From Lepidurus packardi (Eukaryota > Arthropoda > Branchiopoda > Notostraca > Triopsidae), in NCBI GenBank assembly GCA_023053545.1, contig JAKZAN010000007.1, positions 4,464,001 through 4,528,000 on the forward strand: a stretch of 64,000 nt of DNA. The letters are read 5' to 3'. The position numbers and the translations under genes were made by a program. Under the pieces are notes generated by a model that was given only the letters and a program-made list of their open reading frames with translations, made no database searches and had not been told where the DNA came from. Positions 12,772 to 63,592 of this stretch are shown one piece after another (position 1 is the first letter of the stretch; every line of letters starts with the position of its first letter).

Positions 12772-15253
12772 ATGGCGACTCAACGGAAAAAGCATTCTCC
12801 TCTGTGTTTTTTGTGGAGGACACGTGATCCGGTGATGAGTGCTTCCCAACTGAAGAGACTTGGAGAGCACAAGTACAGCTGCACAAATGGAAGCTTGCTG
12901 GACCCTTTCATGCAACCGTGGTGGAACTGGCTGGTCACACAACTGCCCTTATGGATGGCTCCGAATTTAATTACCATTAGTGGATTGGCTGTCAATATAA
13001 TTACGTCCTTAATTCTTGTATATTATAGCCCAGACGGAAAACAAGAGGTAAATCCCCTTTCGGTCTGCCCTTCGATGTCTATTCTTTATCATGTTATGGC
13101 CTCTTAGCTTTCCCATACGAAAAACTTTTTGGAGGTTAAACGCTGAGCTCGTCCTTTGTTATCTTTTTGGATTTTTTTGGTCTGTTTTGGCGCGTTGGGG
13201 ACGTTCGTAGTTCTTATCAGTCGAACCCCTCACTAGAGTATAATCATAGGTAGCTGTTATCGAACCCTTTAACCCTAAAAGGAAAATGACTAACATATAT
13301 TGCCTAACCTAACTTATACTTGTATTGTGCTTCGTAATTAAAAGGAATGTTTTCTATTTTCGCAGGTACCTGGATGGGCATGTCTTTTATGTGCAATTGG
13401 TCTGTTTATCTACCAAAGCCTGGACGCAATTGATGGAAAGCAAGCTCGTCGGACAGGGTCTTCATCACCTCTAGGTGAACTCTTTGATCATGGTTGTGAT
13501 GCTCTCTCTGTAGGTAAGAATTAACACGCTGAAAAAGAAAGTAAAATACTAAACGCAGGAATCTAGTATTTGTAGCACTGGCTGTCTGTGTGGCTGTGGG
13601 CTTAGGCCATCACCCGAATTGGATGTTTTTCCAATGCTTCGCCTCATTAACCTTATTTTATTGTGCTCACTGGCAGACTTACGTTTCAGGTAAAGTCTAA
13701 TAGACAGAAACTTCGCTTTTTGTCGATAATAAGGCAGTTTGTAGGGACTTTAAAGTTTGGGTTGTTTGATGTCACAGAAGCTCAATTCAGTATCATTGGA
13801 ATTCATCTTGCATGCTTTGTACTTGGATCCAGTTTCTTCACATTGGAGGTAAGTCTTTCACTATGCTGTTTCGATGTCAAATTTTGATGTCTAATTGAAC
13901 ATTACTGGAAAAAAACAGATCAACTAAACGATTTCATCTTCAGTGGCCTAATTTATTATCATTGAACGTAATTATAATTATGTCTTGCGCAGTTGTGGGG
14001 AACCGACATCAAATTAAGAGTCCTCTTGGTTATGAGCATTAGTTTCGTATCCCTCAATTCTTTTAAAGCCTACACCTTAGCGATTTTAGGCGGAGGGATT
14101 GGCAAAAACGGATCTACCGTAGCTGTAAGACAAATTAGGCCTTCCTGGCCCTTACAAATTGCGTAATATCGGGAGCTTTTGTTTGTTCTTTCCCCTTGAT
14201 GTTTACATTGTGAGGGGGTTTTATTTATCCGCTTAAGTGTAGCAAAATAGGGAAACTAAGGAAATGTGTGCGTGTGTGAAATTAATTGCAGAAATCTCCT
14301 GGTATTTTTTTGTCATTTCCTTTTTTATTTCCTTTGCTTTTCACGTGGGTTTAAGCTTCCGTGGCTCAACTTGCCAGCTGTGGTTGTACCAGGGTTCTTC
14401 ACGCTCTGCGTTTATTGCTTCATTTCTTATAACTTGTTATCAGTTATACTGCGAGGCGGGGCTGGAAAAAATGGGTCTACTGTCGCCGTAAGTGGTTAGC
14501 TTTCCTTGCATTCTACTCGGGATCTCGGCTTACAAGGCAGTATTGAGAAATAGACGCTAATTTTCTTTCATTCTGCGTCAGGGTACCAGTGTATTATCAC
14601 CAGCAATCCCCTTTGGATTGGTGGTCGTCCCTGCGTACGTTATTGCGCGTATGAGTGAGGAACATTTGTACGAAGAACACCCTACTTTGTATATTATGGC
14701 GTTTGGACTAGTCTCTGCCAAAGTCACGAACCGATTAGTGGTAAGCTATATAGTTTGTAATGTTCTTTTTAGCGTTTGTAAACGTATTTGCATAATCATA
14801 GGTGGCTCATATGACCAAGAGTGAAATGGACTTGCTAGATTCCGTGTTATGGGGTCCGGCACTCCTGTTTCTCAACCAGTATTTCAACACGTTTATCACG
14901 GAATACTACGTTTTGTGGGTTTGTTTCGTAAGTTTGTTTTTACAAGTATCCACTACTAACATTCAAAATTAATTGCAGCCGTTTCAGTTTAGAGGAATTT
15001 ATTTTGCTTGCTTAACAGAAAGTTGAAAAGGGTTTGCGTAACATCAGTATTTGTTTTTTAGGTTTGGGCCTTGTGGGATTTGACGCGCTATTGCAGCTCG
15101 GTCTGTGTTGAGATTTGCGACGCATTGAACATAGAATTGTTTCGGATAACTCCGAAAGTCATTGACGGAGTTGGAGCTACCATAAAGAATAACACTGCTG
15201 CAGAACAAGGCACGAATGGTTTCTCGAAATCTTCGAAACACAAAAAGCAGTAG
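12772..15253 (+). CDS. CEPT1: Choline/ethanolamine phosphotransferase (CDP-alcohol phosphotransferase)
   Basis: Exons: 12772-13047, 13366-13513, 13567-13689, 13745-13848, then either 13993-14124 or 14356-14487, then 14582-14740, 14802-14927, 15062-15253. Each form has 419 residues (human CEPT1 416). The CDP-alcohol phosphotransferase signature DG-x2-AR-x8-G-x3-D-x3-D is complete: D115, G116, A119, R120, G129, D133, D137. Other family blocks are [42 protein letters not shown] and VAHMTKSE. The enzyme is a multi-pass ER/Golgi membrane protein of the Kennedy pathway that joins CDP-choline or CDP-ethanolamine to diacylglycerol. Sequence alone does not separate CEPT1 from CHPT1-type choline specificity. 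The two alternative fifth exons are described separately. Confidence 0.94.
13993..14124 (+). other. CEPT1: Phosphotransferase alternative exon 5a
   Basis: This 132-nt exon starts after the strong acceptor CTTGCGCAG, ends before GTAAGAC, and is phase 0 at both ends. It encodes 44 residues from [13 protein letters not shown] to GKNGSTVA. The start resembles vertebrate CEPT1 (EIKLKI) better than exon 5b does. It covers one transmembrane helix and the conserved GKNGST loop. Exon 5b has the same length, phase and final motif. Confidence 0.85.
14356..14487 (+). other. CEPT1: Phosphotransferase alternative exon 5b
   Basis: This exon is also 132 nt and phase 0 at both ends. It starts after GGGTTTAAG and ends before GTAAGTGG. 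It encodes 44 residues from [14 protein letters not shown] to [11 protein letters not shown]. Its second half ([12 protein letters not shown]) is closer to vertebrate CEPT1 (VILHGGVGKNGS) than exon 5a is. Including both exons would keep the frame but repeat a helix, so one exon per mRNA is expected. Confidence 0.85.
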
Positions 15254-16312: not shown

Positions 16313-16835
16313 TTCTAAAATTATGCAAGTGAGATGTTTTGCTCCAACCGGAATTCCTTATTTGCTTATTTATTATATCAAAACGTTTCCCGTCAAAATC
16401 TAGTTTCCAAAAAAATTCCGTGTTGTACGATTTGTGATTTTTTAATAAAAGCGAAAATTTTTGCAATTTTTGCGTGATTTAAAAAAAATCGCGAAAAGGG
16501 GTGTGGTCTCTACAAAAAAGACGAATCCTTGGTGGATTTCAACAAAAAGGGGGTGTGGTCTCTTTTCGAACTGGAAAAGCGTTTTCTGTGCTTTTTCCCA
16601 TAAGGAAAACCGAGAACCTGTCGTTCCGTGCGTGCTATCCACTCGTTTACACACTTATATTAAGCAGTCTTTGAAATATATATAAATGCAGCATATGAAC
16701 AAAGCTGATATACAGTGTATGTTTGAAGTTATCCATATTTTGTTCGATTTATAAAGATATTACGGTTCACCTATAGCCATACCTTCATATCCCCCATATC
16801 AAAATTTATACAAAAAATACTTACGTTATTACGAG
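16313..16835. other. Spacer with a short direct repeat
   Basis: No supported gene. The 14-mer GGGGTGTGGTCTCT occurs twice, near 16498 and 16549, each copy in an A-rich setting. The sequence becomes homologous to copy B (27.7 kb) from about 16836. Confidence 0.4.
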
Positions 16836-17874
16836 TCAAAATCATTCAAAAAAAGGGAAAATGTACTAACTTATAAGAAAGAAAGCTCTTGAAGACAGGA
16901 ATGTACTCGTGGCTTCAGAGAAGTATAAATGTTGATTATAGGGAAAAGGTCGCCGCGTTGTATCCTACTGATGAATTTCAAAGGAACACTTACAGCTCAA
17001 CGATGACGCGGGGAAGAGGCTTCTGTTAACGAAAACAACCAATTCTCATGATTACTAGAGCTTGATGCAAAACCGATGATATTTTTCGCGAAAGTCAATG
17101 CAACTGAAGTCGAATAGAAATCGAAATGTATTTACTGAAACGTTTTCAAATGAGAAAGCTTTCAATAGGGAACCTACGAATAGTTCTCCGTGTTTACTAA
17201 GCATTTTCTTAGGAAATATCTGCATTATTCTAAAGCCTGGATGCGACATGGAAATCGGAAGTTCTCGGAAGAACTCGAGCGTTGAATTGCCGAGGCATAA
17301 TAGACAATTTATCGTACATTGCTCAACATTTTCTTGGAAATCGCTAAACGTTCCCATAGAGTACATGAAACATTTGGTAAAAACCATAAAACCATTAACT
17401 TGGATTTCCATCACTTTTATCCTTGTAGACATAAAAGCCCCTCCTTGACAACTTCGACACGTATGTAATCCATTACATCCGTTTATGGCTTCATGTTATT
17501 TCTCTCACATCTCGTAATGTAGTGAATGTAACGGAAATGACTAATTAGGGCAACAGAGGCGGAATCGTTAACTGAGCATTATGTAAGTGCTGTATTTAAT
17601 CCACAATATTTAAAAAATCATTCAACGCGGGGACTAGTAGAGTCATTACGCAAATTGTCAAATCCAACAACAAACAGGCAGATCCTAAACAATTGTGCTC
17701 TAGAAAATCACTCGTTTAGGGTACGAAGCTAAGGCACTCCATTCCGTTCGCGAGACATGACGTGAGATGTGAAAAAAACTAGGCAACTGCAAAACACAGG
17801 TGTGCAATTTTCTTATTTTTTTCTTTTTCTTTTCAAGCGAGGCTAAACTTGTTCTCAAATTGGGAAGTAGGAAG

Positions 17875-19919
17875 CTAAACATCCAATGTCCGGGTGACAC
17901 TTACTTGTTCTACTTCCTTGTTGACAACGTAGAACTCGTGTTTCTTTGATAAAAGTCCCCATATCACAGCAACATTTTCGATAACTAACTTAAGGGGCGT
18001 GGTGACGACGCCGGCTACTAGACAAAGCGCGAATCTCATCCATCCAAGCCGAGCAATAGTGAAGGAAATCCAAACACCGTACAAATACATGTACATGTTT
18101 ACTCCCGCCACGAAGAACATCACAAAGTCGTACCACTGCACATGAAATAATAGAAGTTAATTAATTAAAAAACTCAAACAATATAGAAGTTTTTTTTCTA
18201 CTTACTTGCGGAAGCGGAATTGGGTACAAAGGCGACAAAAACAAATTGGAAGTCGCGAGGGGCAGTGTGACCCATGAGTATACTGACAAGAGGATCAAAG
18301 GCTTGCAACGCCAGGGAATGAGAGGGGAATGGACTGTTAAAAGAATTCCTTGGAGCCAACGCTTTCGCTGGCGCAAAAAATCCAGGATGTTAAAAGGACT
18401 CTTTTCCCACATCTCGCCTTCGATAAAGTCAAAGCTGTAGCCTTTGCTATACGCCATCAAGGAAAAGAAGCAATCTTCCGCCACAGAACTGTCAATGCCA
18501 TTGTCAAAGGAAACTTTTCTCTCAGCTTCTACCTAAATTGAAATCAAAACATGAAATCTATCCGTTTAGTTTCATGAGATATTACCTTCGAAACAACAAA
18601 AGATCCTTTCCATCCATAAATCGGCTTATGGAAAAATGAAAATTGGAAGCGCAGCTTCCCCATATCGTCCGCTGAGCGATACGCATCGGATAAGGTTAAA
18701 AGCCAGTTGACTACTTTTTCACTTCCATAGGTAATTAGGCCCTGGAACGATTTTTTAAATAGCCACGATTTGATCGAAATTTCGATACACGATAAAAAAA
18801 AAAAATACAACACGAAGAATGCTAAACATAAATATTGTTTAAACCTGACCAAAGGAATGCTTGTTAGCTAGCGCAACATTTTAAAAAAATCGTACAATTA
18901 AAATTGCAAAGAATAAAAAAATACAAATACAAAAGATACACAGATTAAAATTAAACATTAAAATTAAAAAATATTAAAAAAATAAAATAAAAAAACAGCC
19001 ATGATTTGACTGAAATTTCGATAGACGATAAAAAAAATAGAAAGCATAAAAAAGAAGATTACTAAGGACACAATAACTTTTTTTTTACCGGACAAAAGCC
19101 TACCAACTAACGCATTAAAAAAAATCACAAAATTAAAATTTTTTTAAAAAATAGAAAAAAACAGCCACGACATGACGGAAATTTTGATAAACGATAAAAA
19201 AAAACATAAATACGAAGATTGCTAAACCTTAAATAACTTTTTTATTTTACCTGACCAAAGGAATGCTTGTCAGCTAGCGCAAAATTCATTATTCCTTTGA
19301 CCGATGACTCCGTAAGTAGGGTTTCTTCATCCAAGTGTACAATCCAGTCGCGATCGCTTAAAATATTAACTCCATCTTCTAAAGCGTACTGTAAAGCTCG
19401 CCCTTTGAAAAGCACCCCAGTTGTGGTACGATAATCAGCAGGTACAACAACTTCCCTGATTCTGGCATTGGAGAGAATGCCAATACTTTTGTCCGTGACT
19501 ACTTCAATCATAAAATTGCCCAAGCCCGCGTCTAAGCACGTATTGGTGTTTCGGTCTACATTACAGCGCACTAAGTCAGGGTAATTACCCCTAGTGACAA
19601 CTCGTATGCAAATGAGCGGGAGCTTGGAAGGCAGTTGGCGGACCTGCGGTTTTCCGGGGAACGCATTATAGAACACCAGTCCACAAAAATTAAAGATGGT
19701 TTGCGGCAAGCCACTGATCACCACACCCCGGCAAAAGTAAAGAAGAATGCAGCCAAATATTCCATACGACTCCCACGGATCCAGCAAATCCGCAGATCTG
19801 ATTTTGGCATCAAAGGGATTACGGCCTCCAATATAAATAAACACAATAATGGTTGCGGCTAATGCAGTGCAATGGATAGCATGCTTAACGGAACTGGAAA
19901 TGGAAGGCATTTTGCGCAA
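17875..19919 (-). CDS. egh: Egghead, beta-1,4-mannosyltransferase, copy A
   Basis: Four exons on the minus strand: 19919-19251, 18741-18586, 18532-18206, 18135-17875, giving 470 residues (Drosophila Egh 457). The start MRKMPSIS is used; a second ATG three codons later is possible. An N-terminal membrane anchor is followed by NFCGLVFYNAFPGKPQ, the GT2 catalytic motif HLDEE (195-199), ED (294-295) and QRKRW (330-334), then C-terminal membrane helices and WGLLSKKHEFYVV. Egghead adds mannose to glucosylceramide, the second sugar of arthropod-series glycosphingolipids, in the Golgi. All key residues are intact and all phases close. It differs from copy B at about 24 of 470 positions. Intron 1 contains extra partial copies of the end of exon 1. 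Confidence 0.95.
18742..19250. repeat. Repeated exon-1-end/intron unit in egghead intron 1, copy A
   Basis: Three degenerate units each run from a block like GATTTGATCGAAATTTCGATA through an A-rich stretch to a copy of the exon 1 donor region. The donor-like copies (plus strand ACCTGACCAAAGGAATGCTT) start at about 18843 (good match), about 19087 (poorer) and 19250 (the real junction). Copy B has the same arrangement, so the repeats arose before the segmental duplication. Confidence 0.8.
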
Positions 19920-21009
19920 TACGAGGGCTTTGCCAAACTTTGCCTAATTCCAAACACAGATTTGTCGTATATTTAATTTAAGGGAATCTCGAAGCTCTAG
20001 TTGTACCTCACAATGCCGAAATGCGAGCGGTAGTCACGAGTGAGTAGGACTATGTTCCAGGGCTGCTTTTGTTGCGGTAAGATCCCCGCCTTCATCTACC
20101 AATTCACCGTGCTCAGCAAACAACCTTCAATATACATAAATACACAGGTTGTGTCACTGTACGTAGGACACCTGACAATTATATAGGTCATAGCCTGTCT
20201 GCCAGATACTGTAGTATTACGGAAGTACCCAGTATAACGCAACATAAAACGCAATTAAGAATTATAAACAAACTTATACTGACGTGTAAATTGAAAAAAA
20301 AAAACTGTAACAATTAACAAAAATACTGTGAACGCTCAAATTTACCGTAACTGATGCTTGGAAATAAATTGTGTAACCAACCCGTTGCTTATTTACACTG
20401 AAACATAAAAAAGGCATACCTTCAGCTTCACGACCTGGGTTCGACAACGAGAGACTTTTCCGCCTTCCATGGATTAAACCAGTGCTTGCATAATTGCATC
20501 GTAAAGGGTTTCCTTATGAACTTGCCAAATAACTGTTCCCTGATCTCGCAAACCTGATTTTTTTTATTTTATCATGCACTCGAAATATTCTACAACTTGT
20601 CTTGTAAAGTACGCCACGGAAGCACTAAATTGTGCTTATTGCCGCGGTTTTGTTTTTCCTTGAGTTTTGTTAATTTTCCAATGCTTAGATTCTACAACTA
20701 CCGCCCGCTCGCAAGTAAGCTGTCAACAACCTGATTCGCAGGTCGAATTTACGAACCTGTGAAAAACCATCACGCGAACCGCGACAATGAATTTCCACCT
20801 GCCTTTGGATTTTACAACAGGACAAGACGACACATTTCGACTACATGCAATGAAACTGCCATATGTTTCAGAAGCAATGAATACTCATAACAGAAAAAAA
20901 GGCAACTACGCCGTAGAAAAAAAAACATAACTTTGACAGTTTGCCGATGGGAAAATAGTTCACCCTTTCGCACAAATCGAAAATAATTCCTGAACGAAGC
21001 TCAAAACTA
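19920..21009. other. Spacer between egghead A and the zinc-finger exons
   Basis: This is the egghead leader and promoter side together with the spacer to the lola-type pseudo-exons. It is closely matched at 30777-31739. No further gene was recognised. Confidence 0.45.
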
Positions 21010-21507
21010 TTAGGTCGTGAGACACGCACCTCTAGTAATGTGCCTGGTCAATCGGAATCTGTACATGAATGATTTCCCGCAAAGAGGGCACACAAAGTCT
21101 TTCCTTTTGTCGCGGCACTCATACTTTGCATGACGCCAAAGACTTCTTTGCAAGGAGTACGTTTTCCCACACACCGTACACCCATACAATTGGGTATTTT
21201 CGTTTGGCACATTCGGAGGATGTGCCGGTTCAACCTTCACTATAGGAACTGCCACACGAGTTCGCTGTTCCGGGTACAGTGTAGCGATTTCGCCGTCTTC
21301 ACTTTCGCCATTGTGTGCGTGGGAGAGTGACCGATTGCTGCTGGATGAATTGTGTTCCTGACTTTGGCACAGGTCCAAAGGAGGGCAATCCGGTCGGTAC
21401 AGGAAATTGGACAACTTGGGGAATGGAACTCCTGTAGGCCCAAATTGTCCAATTATGGACAATAATTTAGCTTCTTGGGTCAAAGAAGCCACCAGTAATT
21501 CCAGCTC
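21010..21507 (-). pseudogene. Lola-type zinc-finger terminal exon 2, copy A, frameshifted
   Basis: This is the counterpart of the working exon 31740-32260. It encodes the same finger pair (YGCTVCGKTYS, then DFVCPLCGKSFMYRF) and ends RGACLTT-stop. Relative to copy B it has one extra base shortly after the acceptor (minus strand TTCTTTGACCC against TTCTTGTCCC). Entered from a phase-1 donor such as that of the BTB exon, it therefore reads into TAA within about 14 codons. It also lacks the 24 nt encoding LPECSVYR. No BTB exon remains upstream of it. The 160-residue open frame inside the exon is left over from the former reading frame. Confidence 0.82.
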
Positions 21508-21738
21508 CTAGTTAACAAATGTAAACAAAAAAAAAACAATGAACTATTATGGTTACAAGCGACTCTCCACCGAATAAAGCAATATGCGTGTCAAATAAAA
21601 CAATAAAGTTTGCATTAAACAAAGTCTGGCTCTATTATTTCTCATGAGGGGGGAAAAAGATAAAAATTAGAGGCGCCATTTCGATCACATGTGGTAGCTA
21701 ACTTTAAAATAGTAGCATAACTAATGCAAATTCTCTTC

Positions 21739-21931
21739 TAATTCAGCTGGATCCAGTCCATGCAGCTTTCTGATGTGACGTTGCTGATCACTTTTGTGCT
21801 TAAAGCACTGCAAACAGATACGACACTTGAACTGGGGCTCAACCCCGTACTAAGTAGCAGGTGCTAAGATATTCGTCAACACAAAGCTTGGGACGGGGAT
21901 AACATCTGACGGGAAAGTGTCTGTAAAGGAA
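21739..21931 (-). pseudogene. Lola-type zinc-finger terminal exon 1, copy A, internally deleted
   Basis: The acceptor TTTACAG and the first 22 or so codons (DTFPSDVIPVPSFVLTNI) match copy B, then the reading frame runs straight into TAG. About 285 bp present in copy B (about 32602-32890), encoding the acidic linker and the first finger, are missing. The second finger (FKCRICLQCFKHKSDQ) remains beyond the break, with a C replacing the R of copy B. The exon cannot make a zinc-finger tail. Confidence 0.85.
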
Positions 21932-21953
21932 AACAGAAAGTCTTGGTTACGCC

Positions 21954-22005
21954 CACAGTATAAAGGTTTCAAAACAGTATAAAGGTTTGAAACCTCTATA
22001 CTGTG
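21954..22005. mobile_element. 52-bp MITE-like insertion with 8-bp target duplication
   Basis: The element starts CACAGTATAAAGGTTT and ends with the inverted form AACCTCTATACTGTG. It is flanked by GTTACGCC on both sides (21946-21953 and 22006-22013). Copy B has the empty site with a single GTTACGCC at 32988-32995. The 8-bp duplication fits hAT or P-type transposition. A larger element with related ends lies at 39563-39986. Confidence 0.9.
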
Positions 22006-22950
22006 GTTACGCCACTTTGAAACAGGGAAACTACTCGTTTTTCTTTCATCTCTCTTTAAGAAAACAGGAAATGTTACTCTGAGCTTTGAGGTTTTTAATT
22101 CACAAGACTTTCTGCTTTACAATTACTGAAATGAATGGCTCAAAAAGACTCATTAACTCAAACACAGGAAAGGATAATACGTGAACCTGAGTACGATTCC
22201 AGGTACACATACAAAAACAAATCCGTCTTAGACTGAAGCACGTGGAGGAGACTAATTCGCCAGATACTTTTGAGGTACAATACATATTTTTTGCTGAAAA
22301 TGCTTCTGAGAACATAAAGTCGCGGGATGTAATTTACTGCTCATTGTACAACTGCTCCGGACCGTCACGACAGTAAGATCCTCGAGACGACGAAGCAGCA
22401 AAAAAAACTTCTAAGCGAAAAACGACACGTTCTAGCTATTCGTTGCGATTTGATTCGACAGGCTGATATCACCTGTTCTTCTCCCATGATCATCGAAGTT
22501 AAAAAGTGATCTTTATCCCACCTAACTACCAATTAGACTGACTTGCCAGAACTGAATGTTTCGTAACAAAGATCACTGGCAGTGATAACCAAAGAACACG
22601 GGAATCAGATTTCGCAAAACGCGAAAGAAGCAATACGCAATACGTGGAAGTATGTTCTAACTCACTAAGTAAATAAATATAGATGTAAGAAAAAAGTTAA
22701 AAATTGGGAAAGTTAAAAGTGTGCTCTGATGAATACAATACAGAAGAAGTCTACTTAAGGTCAAGCCCCACTTCACCTAACAGCATACATCTTACATCGC
22801 GAACGGCTATGGATAAAATGTGTCCTTTACAATTTCTAGGGGGGAAAAAGAAAAAAAATTCACGAAAAGAAATTATCCAATCAAATGAACGCTCTCAGCC
22901 ATCTTATAACTCGTATGCCTCTAAAGTGACCTGCACCAAGTGTGTAACTT

Positions 22951-23872: not shown

Positions 23873-26134
23873 AGGAAACATCGCGAAACGTACATTGAAG
23901 GCAGACGTTGGCCGACGGCAACTCTTAAGGAGAATGGCGCGGAAGTGAATAGCGAATTTTCCGAAATGACGGGCTGTTGCGAAATGCAACCGTCAAGTCA
24001 TGAATTTAAGCCTTCTTTTGAACAGTTCTTGCATCAAGGTGAAAGGCATTCGTCATGTGGACCATCGACAATGCCTTGTTTACAAACCGTGACAAGTTTT
24101 AAGCTTGCTTGCGGGCAGGACTCTGCTACCTTGTCTGATAGCTACTTCCCACATACCGAGGATGCCAACGCGGAGGTATTTGTTGAGCTCGAATTCGAAC
24201 ATAGTGAAGTAGATGACAATGATTCGGACGAGTGTGACGAGTATAGTAAATTTTGCTATCGAGAAGTTTTTGGGCAAACTCCTGCTGGAGAAAGTGAAAT
24301 TGAAGATGTAAGTAACAGTGAAAAAACATCAGAAAGAGAGCTGGTGACTTCCAAAGTTGCCAACTGGGCAAGATAATGTGGTGTACCTCGTACACATGTA
24401 AGCAAATTACTTAAGACACTGCGAGAAGTTCCAAGTTTGACATTTTTGTCTGCCGATTATCGATCTTTATTGAAAACAATCCGCCGCGTTGAGATTGAAG
24501 AGCTCGCACCAGGGAAGTATTACAATTTTGAGCTGATACCTGGATTGACTCGCGCTATGAAGATGCTTCCGCCTTCTGATATTCCAGAGACGCTTCTCCT
24601 TCATGTCAACGTGGATGGCCTACCGATGGCGAAAAGCTCAAGTCACTGTTTTTGGACCATTTTAGTGAAGGTTTTCAATGTACCTGTCTTAAAACCTTTC
24701 GCATGTGGCTTGTACTCGGGACAAGGAAAGCCTAGTAATTTGAATGATTTTCTTAAACCTTTCGTCGAGGAAGCATGCCTTTTGGAAAGGGAGGGGTTTT
24801 GCTTTGAGGGTTTAAAGCTAGGAGTTAAAGTCCACGCTTTTATTTGTGACGCTCCCGCATCTGCCTTGGTTAAAGGGGTCCCGTCACATGGAGGTTATTC
24901 CTCATGTCAGAAATGTATCAGAACGGGGGTGTATATAAAAGAGAAGCCAGTTAATGGGACGGTTATACTTGAGGATCTTAACGCGCAAAAAAGGACAGAT
25001 GCCTCGTTCCGTGCGCGTTTAGAGGCAGATCCAAGTAAACCCCATCACATTCGCGACATTAACGTAGTAGAGGACTTAAACACGGACATGATTTTAGGTT
25101 TCCCGCGTGAATCACTTCACTTGCTTGATTTAGGTATTACGAAAACGTTACTTTGTTTTCTAACACGAAGCGTTAGTAGTCCAGCTAACCTTCCCAAGAG
25201 ATCCATCAATGAACTTACGGCTCATTTAAAGTCTATACAACCTCATGTTCCAGTAGAATTTTCTAAAAAACCCAGAGGACTGGATGAGTTGAAGCGCTGG
25301 AAAGTGACAGAGTTTAAAATGTTTAGAGATTAAATAACTGTAGCTGTCTTTAATGATGTTATACCCGAAAATCTCTACCATCATTTTTTGTCATTCTCGG
25401 TCGGTATTAGATTACTTTCGCGTCACGAGACAAGCCGTGCCAGGAACTTTCGCTTTCTGTCGACATTTATTTAAAAAATTCATAGAAGAAACTTCAGTGC
25501 TTTACGGCAGGCATGTTTTGTCTTATAACAGTCACGGCCTAATTTCATCTTGTAGATGACGTGGGAAATTTTGGACCCATTCCTCTTTGGAGTGGCTACT
25601 GGGCCGAGAATTATCTACAAGTGATAAAAAATTTAGTAAAGACCAAAAAGTGTATGCTTGAGCAAGTTGTTAAGCGACTGCATGAGCTTGAAAGTCACGA
25701 TGTTAAGAAAATAGTGTCAGCTAAAAATCCAGTCCTTTTACAAATGCATTCCAGTGGTCCTGTACGGCCGCCAGGTAACCAGGGACAACAGTTCGAGAAG
25801 GCTGTATGCGATCGTTTTGAGTTGCACCGAAAGGAACCGAATAATGTCGTATTTTTGACAGACACGTCAGTTCTGTGTAGAAGATATTATAAAAAGACCC
25901 GACGAAAGAATTTTTATTATTGGAAGGAATTTTACTTCGTGCAATGATTGCTTTGATTTTCCTGTTCCCTCTCAAAGCATCGATACCTTGTTGGTCAGTC
26001 ATTTATCTGATCAATTGAAATGCTACCCACTCGAAGCTGTTAAATGGAAAGGGTTCAAACTTCCTTTTTTCGGACGAGACGGTTATTGGATTGTTTCTCC
26101 ACTTTCATTTGAGTTTAGGTCTGTTTTTTCATAA
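23873..26134 (+). pseudogene. Decayed DNA-transposon transposase (tnp2-like type)
   Basis: Coding-like sequence runs from about 23873 (HRETYIEGRRWPT) to TAA at 26134. It is typical of transposase-like proteins common in cnidarian and arthropod genomes: VDGLPMAKSSSHCFWTILVK, PFACGLYSGQGKPSN, FICDAPASALVKG, HGGYSSCQKC, ESLHLLDLG, then YGRHVLSYN, DDVGNFGPIPLWSGYWAENY and LEQVVKRLHELE. It is broken: an in-frame TAA at 24374-24376, TAA at 25331-25333, frameshifts in about 25350-25440, at about 25546 and at about 25900. Codons on both sides of each break fit one protein. The superfamily name is my recollection of the family's appearance. No terminal inverted repeats were located. Confidence 0.75.
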
Positions 26135-27712: not shown

Positions 27713-28708
27713 TACACGTTTTATTAGTCAAAATAATTTTATGAGTCAGAATAATTCAAGAAAATTTACTAACTCATAAGAAAGAAAGCTCTTGATGACA
27801 GGAATGTTCTCGTGGCTTCAGAGAAGTATAAATCTTAATTAAAGGGAAAAGGTCGCCGCGTTGTATCCTACTGAGGAATTTCGTAGGAACACTTACAGCT
27901 CAACGATGAGGCGGGGAAGAGGGTTCTGTTAACGAAAACAACCTATTCTCAAGATTACCACAGCTTGATGCAAAACCGATTATATTTTTCGTGAAGTCAA
28001 TGCAACTGAAGTCGGATAGAACTCGAAATGTATTTAGTGAAACGTTTTCCAATGAGAAAGCTTTCAATAGTGGAACCTACGAATAGTTCTCCGTGTTTAC
28101 TAAGCATTTTCTTAAGGAAATGTCTGCATTATTTTGAAGCCTGGTGAGACAAGAAAATCGAAAGTTCTCGGAAGAACTCGAGTACATGAAATATGATGAA
28201 ACAATTGGTAAAAAAAACATAAAACCATTAACTTGGCTTTCCATCACCTTTTATCCTTGTAGGCATAAAAGCCCCTTCTTGGCAACTTCGACACGTATGT
28301 AATCCATTACATCCGTTTATGGCTTCATGTTATTTCTCTCACATCTCGTAATGTAGTGAATGTAACGGGAATGACTAAATAGGGCAAAACAGGCGGAATC
28401 GTTAACTGAGCATTATGTAAGTGCTGTATTTAATCCACAATTCTTAAAAATCATTCAACGCGGGGACTAGTAGAGTCATTACGCAAACTGTCAAATCCAA
28501 CAACAAACAGGCAGACCCTAAACAATTGTGCTCTAGGGAATCACTCGTTTAGGGTACGAAGTTAAGGCACTCCATTCCGTTCGCGAGACATGACGTGAGA
28601 TGTGGAAAAAACTAGGCAACTGCAAAACACAGGTGTGCAATTTTCTTATTTTTTTCTTTTTCTTTTCAAGCGAGGACTAAAGTTGTTCTCTAATTAGGAA
28701 GTAGGAAG

Positions 28709-30776
28709 CTAAACATCCAATTTCCGGGTGACGCTTGCTTGTTCTACTTCCTTGTTGACAACGTAGAACTCGTGTTTCTTTGATAAAAGTCCCCATATCA
28801 CAGCAACATTTTCGATAACTAACTTAAGGGGCGTGGTGACGACGCCGGCTATTAGACAAAGCGCGAATCTCATCCATCCAAGCCGAGCAATAGTGAAGGA
28901 AATCCAAAAACCGTACAAATACATGTACATGTTTACTCCCGCCACGAAGAACATCACAAAGTCGTACCACTGCACATGAAATAATAGAAGTTAATTAATT
29001 AAAAAACTCAACAATATAGAAGTTTTTTTTCTACTTACTTGCGGAAGCGGAATTGGGTACAAAGGCGACAAAAACAAATTGGAAGTCGTGAGGGGCAGTG
29101 CGACCCATGAGTATACTGACAAGAGGATCAAAGGCTTGCAACGCCAGGGAATGAGAGGGGAATGGACTGTTAAAAGAATTCCTTGGAGCCAACGCTTTCG
29201 CTGGTGCAAATAATCCCAGATGTTAAAAGGACTCTTTTCCCACATCTCGCCTTCGATAAAGTCAAAGCTGTAGCCTTTGCTATACGCCATCAAGGAAAAG
29301 AAGCAATCTTCCGCCACAGAACTGTCAATGCCATTGTCAAAGGAAACTTTTCTCTCAGCTTCTACCTAAATTGAAACCAAAACCTGAAATCTATCCGTTC
29401 AATTTCATGAGATATTACCTTCGAAACAACAAAAGATCCTTTCCATCCATAAATCGGCTTATGGAAAAATGAAAATTGGAAGCGCAGCTTCCCCATATCT
29501 TCCGCTGGGCGATAGGCATCGGATAAGGTTAAAAGCCAGTTGACTATTTTTTCACTTCCATAGGTAATTAGGCCCTGAAACGATTTTTTAAATAGCCCGA
29601 TTTGATCGAAATTTCGATACACGATAAAAAACAACATTACAACACGAAGAATGCTAAACACAAATATTTTTTAAACCTGACCAAAGGAATGGCTTGTTAG
29701 CTAGAGCAAATTTTTTTTTAAAAAATCATACAATTAAAATTGCAAAAAAAAGATACACAGAATAAAATTTAAATTAAAAAAAAAAAAAAAAAAAAAAACA
29801 GCCATGACTTGACTGAAATTTTCGATACACGATAAAAAAAACATAGAAAGCATACAAAAGAAGATTGCTAAGCACACAATAACTTTTTTTTACCGGACAA
29901 AAGGAATGCATGTCAACTAACGCATTAAAAAAAATCAAAATTAACAAAATTTTGATTATTTGAAATTAACAAAATCATAATTAAAAAAATTAAATTAAAA
30001 AAAAAATATATATAAAAAAACAGCCACGACATGACGGAAATTTTGATAAACGATAAAAAGAAACATAAATACGAAGATTGCTAAACATTAAATAACATTT
30101 TTTTTACCTGACCAAAGGAATGCTTGTCAGCTAACGCAAAATTCATTATTCCTTTGACGGATGACTCCGTAAGTAGTGTTTCTTCATCCAAGTGTACAAT
30201 CCAGTCGCGATCGCTTAAAATATTAACTCCATCTTCTAAAGCGTACTGTAAAGCTCGCCCTTTGAAAAGCACCCCAGTTGTGGTACGATAATCAGCAGGT
30301 ACAACGACTTCCCTGACTCTGGCATTGGAGAAAATGCCAATACTTTTGTCCGTGACTACTTCAATCATAAAATTGCCCAAGCCAGCGTCTAGGCATGTAT
30401 TGCTGTTTCGGTCTATATTACAGCGCACTAAGTCAGGGTAATTACCCCTAGTGACAACTCGTATGCAAATGAGCGGAAGCTTGGAAGGCAGTTGGCGGAC
30501 CTGCGGTTTTCCGGGGAACGCATTATAGAACACCAGTCCACAAAAATTAAAAATGGTTTGCGGCACGCAACTGATCACCACACCCCGGCAAAAGTAAAGA
30601 AGAATGCAGCCAAATACTCCATACGACTCCCACGGATCCAGCAAATCCACAGATCTGAATTTGGCATCAAAGGGATTACCGCCTCCAATATAAATAAACA
30701 CAATAATGGTTGCGGTTAATGCAGTGCAATGGATAGCATGCTTAACGGAACCAGAAATGGAAGGCATTTTGCGCAA
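28709..30776 (-). CDS. egh: Egghead, beta-1,4-mannosyltransferase, copy B
   Basis: Four exons: 30776-30108, 29574-29419, 29365-29039, 28969-28709, with the same lengths as copy A (669, 156, 327, 261 nt) and 470 residues. HLDEE, ED and QRKRW are all present at the same positions as in copy A. Differences from copy A are spread over the protein (12 in exon 1, 3 in exon 2, 5 in exon 3, 4 in exon 4), many conservative. No stop, frameshift or splice-site loss separates the copies, so both are likely functional glycolipid mannosyltransferases. The gene lies about 1 kb downstream (minus strand) of the last lola-type exon. Which copy is ancestral cannot be told from the coding sequence. Confidence 0.95.
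29575..30107. repeat. Repeated exon-1-end/intron unit in egghead intron 1, copy B
   Basis: Donor-region copies (plus strand ACCTGACCAAAGGAAT or close variants) begin at about 29673, 29891 and 30106, a regular spacing of about 215 bp. Each is preceded by a GAAATTTCGATA-type block and A-rich sequence, including a run of about 20 A near 29776. The regular spacing here suggests the original unit length; copy A has since drifted by indels. Confidence 0.82.
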
Positions 30777-31739
30777 TATGAGGGCTTTGTCAAACTTTGC
30801 CTAATCCCAAACACAGATTTGTCGTATATTTAATTTAAGGGATCTTGAAGCTCTAGTTGTACCTCACAATGCCGAAATGCGAGCGGTAGTCAAGAGTGAG
30901 TAGGACTATGTTCCAGGGCTGCTTTTGTTGCAGTAAGATCCCCGCCTTCATCTAACGATTCACCGTGCTCAGCAAACAACCTTCAATATACATAAATACA
31001 CAGGTTGTGTCACTGTACGTAGGACACCTGACAATTATATAGGTCATAGCCTGTCTGCCAGATACTGTAGTATTACGGAAGTACCCAGTATAACGCACCA
31101 TAAAACGCAATTAAGAATTATAAGCAAGCTTATACTGACGTGTAAATTGAAAGAAAAAAAGTGTAACAATTAACAGAAATACTGTGAACGCTCAAATTTA
31201 CCGTAACTGATGCTTGGAAATAAATTGTGTAACCAACCCTTTGCTTATTTACACTGAAATTTACAAAATACCTTCATGACCTGGGTTCGACAACGAGACT
31301 TTTCCGCCTTCCACGTATTAAACCAGTGCTTGCATAATTGCATTGTAAAGAGATTCACTACCAAATAAATGTTTCCTGATCTCGCAAACCTGATTTTTTT
31401 TATTTTATCATGCACTCGAAATATTCTACAACTACCGCCCGCTCGCAAGTAAGCTGTCAACAACCTGATTCGCAGGTCGAATTTACGAACCTGTGAAAAA
31501 CCATCACACGAACCGCGACAATGAATTTCCACCTGCCTTTGGATTTTACAACAGGACAAGACGACCATTTCGACTACATGCAATGAAACTGGCATGTTTC
31601 AGAAGCAATGAATACTCATAACAGAGAAAAAAAGGCAACTACGCCGTAGAAAAAACATAACTTTGACAGTTTGCCGATGGGAAAATAGTTCACCCTTTCG
31701 CACAAATCTAAAATAATTCCTGAACGAAGCTCAAAACTA

Positions 31740-32260
31740 TTAGGTCGTGAGACACGCACCTCTAGTAATGTGCCTGGTCAATCGGAATCTGTACATGAAT
31801 GATTTCCCGCAAAGAGGGCACACAAAGTCTTTCCTTTTGTCGCGGCACTCATACTTTGCATGACGCCAAAGACTTCTTTGCAAGGAGTACGTTTTCCCAC
31901 ACACCGTACACCCATACAATTGGGTATTTTCGTTTGGCACATTCGGAGGATGTGCCGGTTCAACCTTCACTATAGGAACTGCCACACGAGTTCGCTGGTC
32001 CGGGTACAGTGTAGCGATTTCACCGTCTTCACTTTCGCCATTGTGTGCGTGGGAGAGTGACCGATTGCTGCTGGATGAATTGTGTTCCTGTCGATAAACG
32101 CTGCATTCAGGGAGACTTTGGCACAGGTCCAAAGGAGGGCAATCCGGTCGGTACAGGAAATTGGACAACTTGGGGAACGGAACTCCTGTAGGCCCGAATT
32201 GTCCAATTATGGACAATAATTTAGCTTCTTGGGACAAGAAGCCACCAGTAAGTCCAGCTC
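31740..32260 (-). CDS. Lola-type alternative terminal exon 2 (C2H2 zinc-finger pair)
   Basis: The exon starts after the acceptor TAACTAG with phase 1, matching the BTB exon donor at 34819, and encodes 172 residues plus stop. Finger 1 is YGCTVCGKTYSLQRSLWRHA followed by KYEC, giving the CCHC arrangement typical of lola isoforms. Finger 2 is FVCPLCGKSFMYRFRLTRHI. Joined to exons 35820-35614 and 35533-34819 it gives a 480-residue protein. The start GAGLTGGFLSQEAK and a serine-rich stretch precede the fingers. It is the second of two competing 3' ends; copy A carries a frameshifted version at 21010-21507. Confidence 0.85.
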
Positions 32261-32474
32261 CTAGTTAACAAATGTAAACAAAAAAAAAAACAATGAACTA
32301 TTATGGTTACAAGCGACTCTCCACGGAATAAAGCAATATGCGTGTCAAACAAAACAATAAAGTCTGCATTAGACAAAGTCTGGCTCTATTATTTCTCATG
32401 AGGGGGGAAAAAGATAAAAATTGGAGGCGCCATTTCGATCACATGTGGTAGCTAACTTTAAAACAGTAGCATAA

Positions 32475-35400
32475 CTAATGCAAATTCTCTTCTAATTCAG
32501 CTGGATCCAGTCCATGTAGCTTTCTAATGTGACGTTGCTGATCACTTTTGTGCTTAAAGCGCTGCAAACAGATACGACACTGGAACTGGGGCTCAACCCC
32601 GCACTCGTATCGTAAGTGCCTAAGTACCGAGTGTCGTTTGGAATACAAGCGACCACACCGATTACAGGAGTACATAAAACAGCGCGTGCCAACGCGCTGA
32701 ATCTTGTCCAGCTCAGAAAACCCGCTCCCTTCAGCATCAGTTGCAAAGTTAGCCGGGTTTTCCGCCTCCTCATGCTCAAGCTCAAACACAGCGTCTTCAT
32801 CGTCTTCATCGTCCCCCTCTGATCCTTCCAATTCCACCACTTCGGGCGGCTTGGCTTGTAAACCCTCCGCTGCTGCACAACTTATCATACTATAAGTAGC
32901 AGGTGCTAAGATATTCGTCAACACAAAGCTTGGGACGGGGATAACATCTGACGGGAAAGTATCTGTAAAGGAAAACAGAAAGTCTTGGTTACGCCACTTT
33001 GAAACAGGGAAACTACTCGTTTTTCTTTCATTTCTCTTTAAGAAAACAGGAAATGTTACTCTGAGCTTTGAGGTTTTTAATTCACAAGACTTTCTGCTTT
33101 ACAATTACTGAAATGAATGGCTCGAAAAGACTCATTAACTCAAACACAGGAAAGGATAATACGTGAACTTGAATACGATTCCGGGTACACATATAAAAAC
33201 AAATCCGTCTTAAGCTGACGCACGTAGAGGAGACTAATTCGCGAGATACTTTTGAGGTACAATACATATTTTTTGCTGCAATTGCTTCTCAGAACATAAA
33301 GTCGCGGGATGTAATTTACTACTCATTGTACAACTGCTCCGGACCGTCACGACAGTAAGATCCTCGAGACGACGAAGCAGCAAAAAAAACTTCTAAGCGA
33401 AAAACGACACGTTCTAGCTATTCGTTGCGATTTGATTCGACAGGCTGATATCACCTGTTCTCCCCCTTGATCATCAAAGTTAAAAAGTGATCTTTATCCC
33501 ACCTAACTACCAATTAGACTGACTTGCCAGAACTGAATGTTTCGTAACAAAGATCACTGGCAGTGATAACCAAAGAACACGGGAATCAGATTTCGCAAAA
33601 CGCGAAAGAAGCAATACGCAATACGTGGAAGTATGTTCTAACTCACTAAGTAAATAAATATAAATGAAAGAAAAAAGTTAAAAATTGGGAAAGTTAAAAG
33701 TGTGCTCTGATGAATACAATACAGAAGAAGTCTACCTTTCAAGCCCCACTTCACCTAACATCATACATCTTACATCGCGAACGGCTACGGATTAAATGTG
33801 TCCTTTACAATTTCTAGGGGGAAAAAAAGAAAAAAATTTCACGAAAAGAAATTCTCCAATCAAATGAACAGTCTCAGCCATCTTATAACTCGTATGCCTC
33901 TAAAGTGAGCTGCACCAAGTGTGTAACTTAGAGCTTGACTTAAAGAACAGAGATTAGGAAGCTTAGCTCGCGACGACGATCATGACACTGTACAATTCAC
34001 CGAATTACACATATTGACAGAACCATCTTCAAGTGAAATTACGGTTCTAGTCGTTTTTAGTTCGTAACTAGCTAATCGCTGAACTACATAGAACAAAATT
34101 TCACCTTCAAATTTACCATGCAAATGCGGCTAAAGATGTTAATCTGTCTTCACACTTTCCTATCGACAAAACTAATTTCCGACAAATAGAGCATGGGAAT
34201 GAAAGGGATTAAGCCACATCCAAGGCCAAAAAGCCAAAATCTTCCCTTTGCGTACCATTCATACATTTTGAAACAACGAGAAAAAATCAAATTTACCGAG
34301 TCATTTTAAACCATAACCATGACCCAAGTTTTAGAGGCAGATCTGATCTTGATAACGCCAGAGGACTTGGTATGTCAACGGAACTAGAAACTATTCCAGC
34401 GGTCATATTAGCGAGGCTAAATGCAACTGACGTTGCAAAGCCAAGTATATTGTAATAGTTCCTCTTTTCTACTTGAAATAGAAGCACTAATTTATCAGCC
34501 GTTTTTTCTTCTCCACTGCACTTCTTTTCTTAACACCTGCAAACTTGTAACCTGAGTGTGTGTGCAAAAGCAGACTAGGGTTTGACTATTGCAGTTTTCT
34601 AAAAACCACAAAAAAAAAACGACTACTAACTTTTGCTTCCTTTCTTCTTCTTTACTCCTCAGGGTTATGGATGAACAACCAGAACAACCGAACGTTGTCT
34701 TACATCCAAACATAGCTTCACTTCTCTTTATCTCAACGAATGTTCGGCCGAGATAGTTCTTTTAGGCCACAAACATGTTAAGCAAAGCATTAGGGTAGAC
34801 AGTTGGGCATAAGCTTACCTTGTTGCAAAGGCTTGTTTGATATACGACTAGGTCCTGCTACTGCTGACTCTCCGGTTACATTACCATTGTTCCACGAACC
34901 TATTCCAACGAAATTATAGCTCAGAATGCAAATACGGATAAGTATACTTTGACACTCGGATAAACCGAGCTGAGGCACCAAAAGTTCTTCCGGTTTCCCA
35001 ACAACCAACTCATCTTCCTCACTCCAATCTTCACTTTGTCCAATATTGTCTCCTTCTGCTCCAACATTCGAACCTTCCGATAGATGCTGGTGATTCGATG
35101 TAGCGGGTCCAGTTCTACGACGCGCTTCCGACGAACTACCCGTTCTAGTTAACATCATTCTATGTTTTAAGGGAGGAGGGGTGACTTGGGTTTGAACATT
35201 TAGGCCTTCATGGGTCGTTCTGTTGGAGCGGTCTTCGGACGAGTAAACATCACTGCTCTCTCCGGAGTCTCGACGACGTTTAGTGGCGGGTTTTACGGGT
35301 CCTAGACCTGAGGAGGTTGCATGGGAAGTACTTAGGTTACTACTAGGTACTTGGCTTTGCGTTAAGCCACGGATTTGCAAGGATTCAGCTGTGCGAAGAA

Positions 35401-35820
35401 AGGAAGCCATTTTGTCGTAACTAATGCTAATTTCTCCTTTGTACATGAAATCCAGTAGCGCTTTCAATTCATCGAATTGTACATCCTTAAGGAAAACAAT
35501 GGTGTTTTGTTCAGGATGTAATGAGAGCAGATCCTAAGAAAAAAAAATAAAGCTTTCATTAGTTTTAGTACTATACAATTCAAAAACGAAAATGAATCGA
35601 AAACGACACTTACATCAAAATAAGGACTACAACAGGAAAGAATCACTCTGTGTGCACGAATGAATTTTCCTTCGGCAGCCAATGTAACGTCAAGGAAGTG
35701 TCCCTTTGTCAGAAGATTAGCAAAACATTTGACTATATTTTCTTGATGGTTGTTCCATTTCAAGCAGTAGTTGGAGTCCTGCGGGGCCGCACTTGCTGCC
35801 TGAGTTGATATTGCAGCCAT
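32475..35820 (-). CDS. Lola-type BTB/zinc-finger transcription factor (isoform with terminal exon 1)
   Basis: Exons 35820-35614, 35533-34819 and 32962-32475 give 469 residues. The N-terminus carries a BTB/POZ domain (residues about 16-122: YCLKWNNHQENIVKCFANLL, FLDVTLAAEGKFIRAHRVIL, LDFMYKGEISI), the arthropod lola/ttk/mod(mdg4) type that mediates dimerisation. A long acidic, serine-rich linker follows. The terminal exon adds an acidic stretch and two fingers: YSCNRCGRLYSKRHSVLRHL with YEC (CCHC) and FQCRICLQRFKHKSDQQRHI with KLH. This is the pattern of longitudinals-lacking proteins, nuclear regulators whose 3' exons are chosen by alternative splicing. A second terminal exon at 31740-32260 has the same phase. 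I use no gene symbol because lola orthology against other BTB paralogues is not proven. Confidence 0.88.
33930..34818. other. Unduplicated part of the large lola-type intron
   Basis: Lies between the copy B boundary and the BTB exon donor. No additional zinc-finger exon was recognised: no C-x2-C...H pattern in phase 1 on the minus strand. Short frames at 34293-34487 and 34495-34713 have no support. Confidence 0.45.
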
Positions 35821-36001
35821 CCTTGCATTGGTTTCTGATACAAAGACAAAGTTTAAGCATTAAGGTGCTGGTTTTTATTTTTTACCGAAGTTAGATTGAA
35901 CTTACCTAGCTAGCCAAACAAAATAGCATACTACAACTCAGAGAAAAATTAACCACGCAACCAAAACAAAGAACGAACAAATTGGTATGGCGTCTACTTA
36001 C

Positions 36002-41535: not shown

Positions 41536-50735
<9,200 letters not shown>

Positions 50736-51210: not shown

Positions 51211-52212
51211 TTAAGGAATTGTGGGATCGTAGCGCTTGCAACACTCTGAAGGTAACGCACTCCAGTTGTACGCGTAAGAGTAACGAAGGCGAATTTCCTC
51301 GCTGCACATCTTACCGAATGTTCGAAGATTAACATACTTTTCATGCATCATCTTGGGAGTTTGCTTGTGGGTTACTAAATAACTATTAAAGCAGCCGCGT
51401 GACTTGTATTCTGTGTCGAAACGAGGGTCGTGGATCCGTGTTACTTTCAGGGGAGCTAGCCATGTTCCGACTGAAAGATCTTCGCTGTTGTACAGCTGGA
51501 AAAGGTGATGGTTTGCGGCAATGTACCGCACGAGGTCAAAGGAAAGGATATAACCTCCGCCAAAAGCGTAGGGTAAGTAATTGTCACAAAGGACCCAATT
51601 TTCTTCCCGATATTTGCCTTTAGTTTTCACGCGGCCGGAACCGTAAAAGAAACCCATGTAAAGCATAGAAGTCTTTTGCTCTCCGAGTATCTGAACCAAA
51701 TTGTCAAGTCTGATGAAAGAATCGTCATCACACTTCATCACAAAACGTGGGTTTCGATTCGACGCCGCCCATACGAAGGCGTCTAAAACTTTTGGAGTTA
51801 GATTCCTAAAAGAGTCTTTCATTTTGGGGAGGAGTAATAAGTCTTGGTGCAGATTGTGCTCATGTTCCAAGGCGGACAAAGAAGAGGTGGTTAACGAAGC
51901 TGTTCCTATAACGAAACTATAAGAAACATTCCTAGTTTTCTGGGATAACCACGTTTCTCGGATGACTTGCCGGCGTTCCGCATTGCCAACCCCGCTGAGC
52001 ACAAGAATGTACAGAAACTCATCACTGTTTTGGTATTTTAGATTGACAACTGGCAAGTGTGTCTGTGTTTTTACTAGTTTAGCTGGATAATCTTTTACGG
52101 TCACACCGCTGGTTGAGAAATATACGACTAGAGAACACACCATTAATAAAATGTATAACAGAATCCATTTTCGTTTGAAAGGAACTCGCACACTCGACAT
52201 TGTTGTAGCCAA
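51211..52212 (-). CDS. B3GALT6: Beta-1,3-galactosyltransferase 6 (proteoglycan linker enzyme)
   Basis: A single-exon frame of 333 residues. It is a type II membrane protein: short basic cytosolic tail, membrane anchor at about 16-33, stem, then a GT31 domain. Motifs: RRQVIRETWLS (80-90), CDDDSF with the metal-binding DDD at 162-164, YLPYAFGGGYILS (212-224), EDLSVGTWLAP (244-254), HDPRFDTEYKSRGC and YLVTHKQ. The end SECCKRYDPTIP resembles the CCQRREGIP end of human B3GALT6 and separates it from other GT31 enzymes. It adds the second galactose of the xylose-galactose-galactose-glucuronate linker on which heparan and chondroitin sulfate are built, in the Golgi. The gene converges on unc-104 and diverges from the next gene with only 84 bp between start codons. 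Confidence 0.95.
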   Translation of the reverse strand: MATTMSSVRVPFKRKWILLYILLMVCSLVVYFSTSGVTVKDYPAKLVKTQTHLPVVNLKYQNSDEFLYILVLSGVGNAERRQVIRETWLSQKTRNVSYSFVIGTASLTTSSLSALEHEHNLHQDLLLLPKMKDSFRNLTPKVLDAFVWAASNRNPRFVMKCDDDSFIRLDNLVQILGEQKTSMLYMGFFYGSGRVKTKGKYREENWVLCDNYLPYAFGGGYILSFDLVRYIAANHHLFQLYNSEDLSVGTWLAPLKVTRIHDPRFDTEYKSRGCFNSYLVTHKQTPKMMHEKYVNLRTFGKMCSEEIRLRYSYAYNWSALPSECCKRYDPTIP

Positions 52213-52296
52213 AACACATGACGTCAGATGTGCACGTAAATGCAGATTTAGGAAATGCGAAGTGCGAAACGCAAATGGTTAAATTAAATCCCCGAG
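52213..52296. promoter_or_regulatory. Compact bidirectional promoter region
   Basis: The start codon of B3GALT6 (minus) and the proposed start of the FANCB-like gene (plus) are 84 bp apart. A TGACGTCA palindrome, the CRE/ATF consensus with its central ACGT, is approximated by ATGACGTCAG at 52229-52238. Both genes must be driven from this gap or from within each other's first exon. Confidence 0.45.

Positions 52297-54469: not shown

Positions 54470-63592
<9,123 letters not shown>

Follow-up and report, generated by a model that had tools for sequence, protein, structure and literature searches.

A probable mutually exclusive exon pair encoding transmembrane helix 6 of a choline/ethanolamine phosphotransferase in Lepidurus packardi

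The gene bbc of Drosophila (bb in a boxcar, CG6016) was named in 2012 as one with mutually exclusive exons. It was among 11 genes with a significant conserved motif in one mutually exclusive exon and not in the other, as judged from fly exons derived from expressed sequence tags and aligned in 15 insects (PMC3303723). Moreover, bbc is reported to have several isoforms that are deposited maternally in D. pseudoobscura and in D. miranda (PMC5147784). Vertebrate enzymes of this class have solved structures. Xenopus CHPT1 has ten transmembrane helices (TMs) including one TM6, which packs loosely and forms with TM5 a slit proposed as the entry for diacylglycerol (PMC10182977). In human CEPT1, Cys253 and Thr254 of TM6 line the acyl-tail chamber, whilst Ser261 and Tyr265, together with Asp212, are polar residues at the top of that chamber whose replacement lowers activity (within TM6, Ser261 to Ala and Tyr265 to Phe); the TM5 change V216A is cited for altering how diacylglycerol is used (PMC10156783). 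Here we analysed a window of 64,000 nucleotides (nt) from L. packardi (assembly GCA_023053545.1, contig JAKZAN010000007.1, positions 4,464,001 to 4,528,000 of the forward strand), which contains a complete choline/ethanolamine phosphotransferase (CEPT) gene at window positions 12772-15253 on the + strand. The gene has eight coding exons and the fifth is present in two copies, 5a and 5b (Table 1). Our joint reading, which we hold at a probability of about 0.8, is that 5a and 5b are old tandem duplicates that are mutually exclusively spliced and would give two enzymes likely to differ in lipid handling.

Either isoform is 419 amino acids long in our model and aligns by phmmer to human CEPT1 (8gyw) without gaps over query positions 14-385, scoring 472.6 bits with 5b and 460.5 bits with 5a. 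The signature of CEPT1/CHPT1-type enzymes is D1xxD2GxxAR...GExxDHxxD (PMC10182977), and it is complete here, with D112, D115, G116, A119, R120, G129, E130, D133, H134 and D137 all invariant with three vertebrate sequences. The 5b isoform is 58% identical to human CEPT1 (8gyw/8gyx), 55% to Xenopus CHPT1 (8ero/8erp) and 52% to human CHPT1 (9uet), and shares with all of them the catalytic motif and a TM6 ending in GKNGST. These three enzymes have a single TM6, which combines the conserved residues that are found here in 5a only with those found in 5b only. A match to Pfam PF01066 (E 6.5e-13) was obtained with a 416-residue first model as the query, and the ten-TM architecture was assigned solely by alignment of query 14-385 to the solved members (8gyw). 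Judged by its sequence, the window gene is a CEPT1/CHPT1-type CDP-alcohol phosphotransferase, predicted to transfer phosphocholine and/or phosphoethanolamine to diacylglycerol. An earlier note on this DNA had called the gene a choline/ethanolamine phosphotransferase and had claimed that the flanking exons fit either copy of exon 5; the signature and the alignment to human CEPT1 bear out the former, and the equal length and gap-free alignment of the two isoforms the latter. The coordinates that it gave for the pair, the length of 132 nt, phase 0 at both ends, the upstream exon end at 13848, the downstream exon start at 14582 and the common GKNGSTVA were all exact.

Both copies are 132 nt long, begin and end in phase 0 and have intact splice sites, with acceptors cgcag/TTG (5a) and ttaag/CTT (5b) and donors GCT/gtaaga (5a) and GCC/gtaagt (5b). 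When 71 open segments of 132 nt lying between AG and GT on both strands were scored against TM6 of the three vertebrate enzymes, 5b ranked first and 5a second (summed BLOSUM62 of 236 and 194, next best -44), and over the first 33 residues, without the GKNGST tail, the scores were 82 for 5b, 31 for 5a and -12 for the next. Likeness to vertebrate TM6 was equalled by 0 of 20000 shuffles for 5b and by 20 of 20000 for 5a. We also compared tandem pairs of open candidate exons of equal length (75-300 nt) and the same phase, allowing four donor types and starts up to 1.2 kb apart and counting a pair once per phase. The window holds 94 of these (63 on the + strand and 31 on the - strand), and 5a/5b is the sole outlier with a score of 57, the runner-up scoring 16. 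In the GKNGSTVA tail all eight residues are the same in the two copies and six of the eight codons differ, every difference being at the third position (P = 0.0002 under an even spread, for a stretch picked after inspection). Over codons 31-44 the differences number 3, 1 and 10 at the first, second and third codon positions, and 12 of these last 14 residues are identical. Over codons 1-30 the differences are even (20, 21 and 19), and 3 of the 30 residues are alike. The tail thus looks constrained in both copies, and the helix halves appear to have diverged beyond mutual resemblance.

Exon 5 encodes protein residues 218-261, equivalent to 239-282 of human CEPT1 in the gap-free phmmer alignment, and is TM6 by alignment to the solved structures. 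The human numbering was anchored on the motif residues Asp154/His155, and it is confirmed by the human Cys, Thr, Ser and Tyr, which fall at 253, 254, 261 and 265. At these positions 5a has Ser, Ile, Ser and Tyr, and 5b has Phe, Thr, Ile and Leu. The three vertebrate sequences agree at 23 positions, of which 10 are kept by both copies and 7 by neither; two are kept by 5a alone (Ser261 and Tyr265) and four by 5b alone (Pro240, Pro250, Asn264 and Val268). This distribution is suggestive of ancestral residues having been split between 5a and 5b, although the numbers are small and we make no statistical claim. The earlier note had described 5a as resembling CEPT1 at its start and 5b at its end, a description that fails because the four residues private to 5b lie in both halves and the two private to 5a are Ser261 and Tyr265. 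Hydropathy is 1.54 for 5a and 1.98 for 5b (vertebrates 1.21-1.79). In TM5, exon 4 encodes alanine (A195) at the position equal to Val216 of human CEPT1.

If each mRNA takes one copy, the gene would produce two 419-residue enzymes with the same catalytic core and a different TM6. This helix would form one wall of the hydrophobic acyl-tail chamber and also flank the TM5/TM6 cleft, which is the proposed route for diacylglycerol entry and phosphatidylcholine exit. Since TM6 borders both the chamber and the cleft, and positions 253, 261 and 265 differ between the copies, the handling of diacylglycerol or product is a likelier difference than the choice of CDP-alcohol. The isoforms would most likely differ in their preference for diacylglycerol species, in turnover or in product release, rather than in the use of CDP-choline or CDP-ethanolamine. 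The earlier interpretation of two enzyme forms that differ in one membrane helix stands in part: the helix is TM6 by alignment and lipid handling is the likelier property to change, whilst we found nothing supporting a changed CDP-alcohol preference or localisation. A bolder extension, which we offer only tentatively, is that one CEPT gene makes two enzymes by exchanging the helix at the diacylglycerol gate, each with its own subset of the residues that are combined in vertebrate TM6, and that splicing sets the acyl composition of new phosphatidylcholine and phosphatidylethanolamine.

We infer that the 5a/5b pair is best read as mutually exclusively spliced, and a number of results weigh against this or against the duplication and TM6 assignments that go with it. 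Joint inclusion (463 residues) and joint skipping (375 residues) are both in frame, meaning that exclusivity is not enforced by frame, and the 5a-5b intron, at 231 nt, is exceeded in length by only one other intron of the gene and has a donor of the ordinary GTAAG type. Therefore, steric exclusion, frame loss and the use of two spliceosome types are unlikely enforcers. Intron folding was ordinary (z = -0.01, -1.37 and -1.22). The duplex energy of intron 4 with the 5a-5b intron was reached by 9 of 200 shuffles, mildly better than chance, and the other two intron-intron pairings were no better than shuffles (183/200 and 146/200). A perfect 10-nt inverted repeat brackets 5a at about chance level (roughly 0.6 expected in 1.1 kb by an arithmetic estimate), and a loop-out stem around 5a is possible. 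The first 33 residues of the two copies have no detectable likeness to each other (5/33 identical, 8252 of 20000 shuffles scoring as high), so that homology of the whole exons has to be argued from the tail, the frame and the likeness of each exon to vertebrate TM6. MAFFT introduces gaps into 5a and phmmer does not, which makes the 5a register at 261 and 265 uncertain. AlphaFold2 predictions from the single sequences were unusable for both isoforms (predicted local distance difference test, pLDDT, 41.0 and 37.0), and the exon 5 shapes in them, mostly helical in b and with strands in a, were given no weight. Four scans of a collection of viral contigs and two of a collection of genome contigs found no relative. 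Searches of the L. packardi genome with single exons (E 0.001 and E 10) found each exon once and missed the other, and are thus insensitive to further diverged copies. Moreover, 65 of 94 look-alike exons predicted in a fly survey were internal candidates, and 26 of those 65 (40%) were already annotated (PMC3228551).

The in-frame 463-residue product would be the protein of the gene if both exons were constitutive and joined in one mRNA. It would, however, place two copies of TM6 in series, against one among ten TMs in the solved Xenopus enzyme (PMC10182977), and one more crossing of the membrane should reverse the orientation of the downstream half; with one copy, by contrast, either isoform aligns to human CEPT1 gap-free. 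Neighbouring exons that look alike without being mutually exclusive occur in just 6 of 1705 X-linked genes of D. melanogaster (PMC3228551), and we regard joint inclusion as highly improbable. One copy might instead be a relic, or a cassette that is seldom used, with the gene running on the other, which by overall score would be 5b. The lower score of 5a against human CEPT1 and its lack of the vertebrate-invariant Pro240, Pro250 and Asn264 fit such a relic, and 44 open codons, expected by chance in about 10% of cases, are weak evidence alone. Yet the splice sites of 5a are intact, its tail is full length and differs from that of 5b only synonymously, it retains the two polar residues of TM6 that were mutated in human CEPT1, and its hydropathy is inside the range of other TM6 sequences; a relic seems to us unlikely. 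Exclusive splicing may also be real with the isoforms differing in stability, localisation or protein partners and not in lipid handling. Vertebrate CHPT1 and CEPT1 sit in different organelles, which counts for this explanation, but some of the changes between 5a and 5b fall at positions assigned to the chamber and the cleft in human CEPT1, and at two of these a mutation lowers activity. We consider it the lesser prospect, albeit one with an appreciable chance of being right.

The gene model given here is a revised one. The 416-residue first model used an exon 3 acceptor at 13576 and left a gap of three residues against human CEPT1; the acceptor at 13567 was preferred because this gap disappears. 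The change raised the phmmer score from 460.9 to 472.6 bits for the 5b isoform and from 448.8 to 460.5 bits for the 5a isoform. Intron 2 (13514-13566) is just 53 nt with the corrected acceptor, and the eight introns, the 5a-5b intron counted, range over 53-318 nt.

Table 1. Coding exons of the CEPT gene and an inverted repeat around exon 5a, in window positions (position 1 is the first nucleotide of the window).
Feature	Position	Strand	Evidence
CEPT coding exon 1, start ATG	12772..13047	+	Translation, splice sites, human CEPT1 alignment
CEPT coding exon 2, catalytic motif DAIDGKQAR...GELFDHGCD	13366..13513	+	Translation, splice sites, alignment
CEPT coding exon 3, acceptor TCTAG/TATTTG	13567..13689	+	Gap against human CEPT1 closed
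CEPT coding exon 4, phase 0 end, TM5 by alignment	13745..13848	+	Translation, splice sites
Exon 5a, TM6 version a, 44 codons, Ser261/Tyr265 equivalents kept	13993..14124	+	
Exon 5b, TM6 version b, 44 codons, Pro240/Pro250/Asn264/Val268 equivalents kept	14356..14487	+	
CEPT coding exon 6, phase 0 start, GTSVLSP	14582..14740	+	Splice sites, translation
CEPT coding exon 7	14802..14927	+	Splice sites, translation
CEPT coding exon 8, including stop	15062..15253	+	Splice sites, translation
10-nt perfect inverted repeat bracketing 5a, left arm	13945..13954	+	Weak, may be chance
10-nt perfect inverted repeat bracketing 5a, right arm	14132..14141	+	Weak, may be chance

A full-length search of the L. 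packardi genome (9 candidates scored, 12 matches at E 10) gave two matches outside the CEPT gene, C163:45345-45914 (E 5e-28) and C6:3624959-3625255 (E 1.2e-11), and further weak ones on C133 (E 0.04) and C1 (E 0.85). By tblastn the surroundings of the C163 and C6 matches contain CDP-alcohol transferase exons, with the GKNGST part at chance level only (E 2.5 and worse) and so uninformative on doubling. One CEPT1/CHPT1-type gene was detected in this genome, together with two more distant relatives. In the contig scans, the pattern matches L017 and L018 were apparently due to chance, their frames being without CEPT sequence; in L017 tblastn at E 1 picked up a single 15-residue match (E 0.91), and L018 had no match.

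Elsewhere in the window, a direct duplication of about 6 kb (16829-22950 and 27739-33929) consists of four aligned blocks, 90-95% identical and roughly 11 kb apart. Its open reading frames include a glycosyltransferase-like gene, which we take to be egghead-like, and C2H2-like zinc-finger exons. The spacer between the duplicated blocks holds an open frame of 318 amino acids (24377-25333, +) that had no Pfam match at E 0.001; our guess is that it may be part of a mobile element. A BTB domain exon (35464-35859, -; Pfam BTB) and a zinc-finger exon (32475-33098, -; sub-threshold zf-C2H2) presumably resemble a lola-type BTB-ZF locus. Ordinary neighbouring genes are marked by Pfam matches to Kinesin-associated and FHA (45652-46128, +), galactosyltransferase (51211-52278, -) and CHDCT2 (61848-62636, +). 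TTAGG repeats, for which a 25-mer had 104 exact, overlapping matches and the reversed control 0, fit an arthropod.

Among the open-licence PMC papers that we found, supplements excluded, none described a CEPT gene with paired exons for TM6. What this analysis adds is the identity of the exchanged segment, the proposed gate helix for diacylglycerol, and the division of functionally sensitive residues between its two copies. Should the isoforms handle lipids differently, the choice of diacylglycerols for phosphatidylcholine and phosphatidylethanolamine would be under the control of splicing, and this natural swap of exons would offer a direct test of the substrate gate proposed between TM5 and TM6. 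A close parallel is Drosophila bbc, which is of the same class, a diacylglycerol cholinephosphotransferase, and has mutually exclusive exons. This is a likeness at gene level with orthology assumed, the portions of the sources that concern bbc not stating whether its exons are coding or lie at TM6. The 5a/5b pair could well be common to the CEPT genes of arthropods in general, and a pair of this type is possibly already annotated in flies. As in the arthropod Mhc and Dscam clusters, the exons are internal, lie in tandem, match in length and phase and encode the same structural element (PMC3228551, PMC3923563). Unlike those clusters, the pair has two copies only, lies in a membrane enzyme of lipid synthesis and has no established docking RNA structure. 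Vertebrates, in place of the proposed splicing switch, have two genes, CHPT1 and CEPT1.
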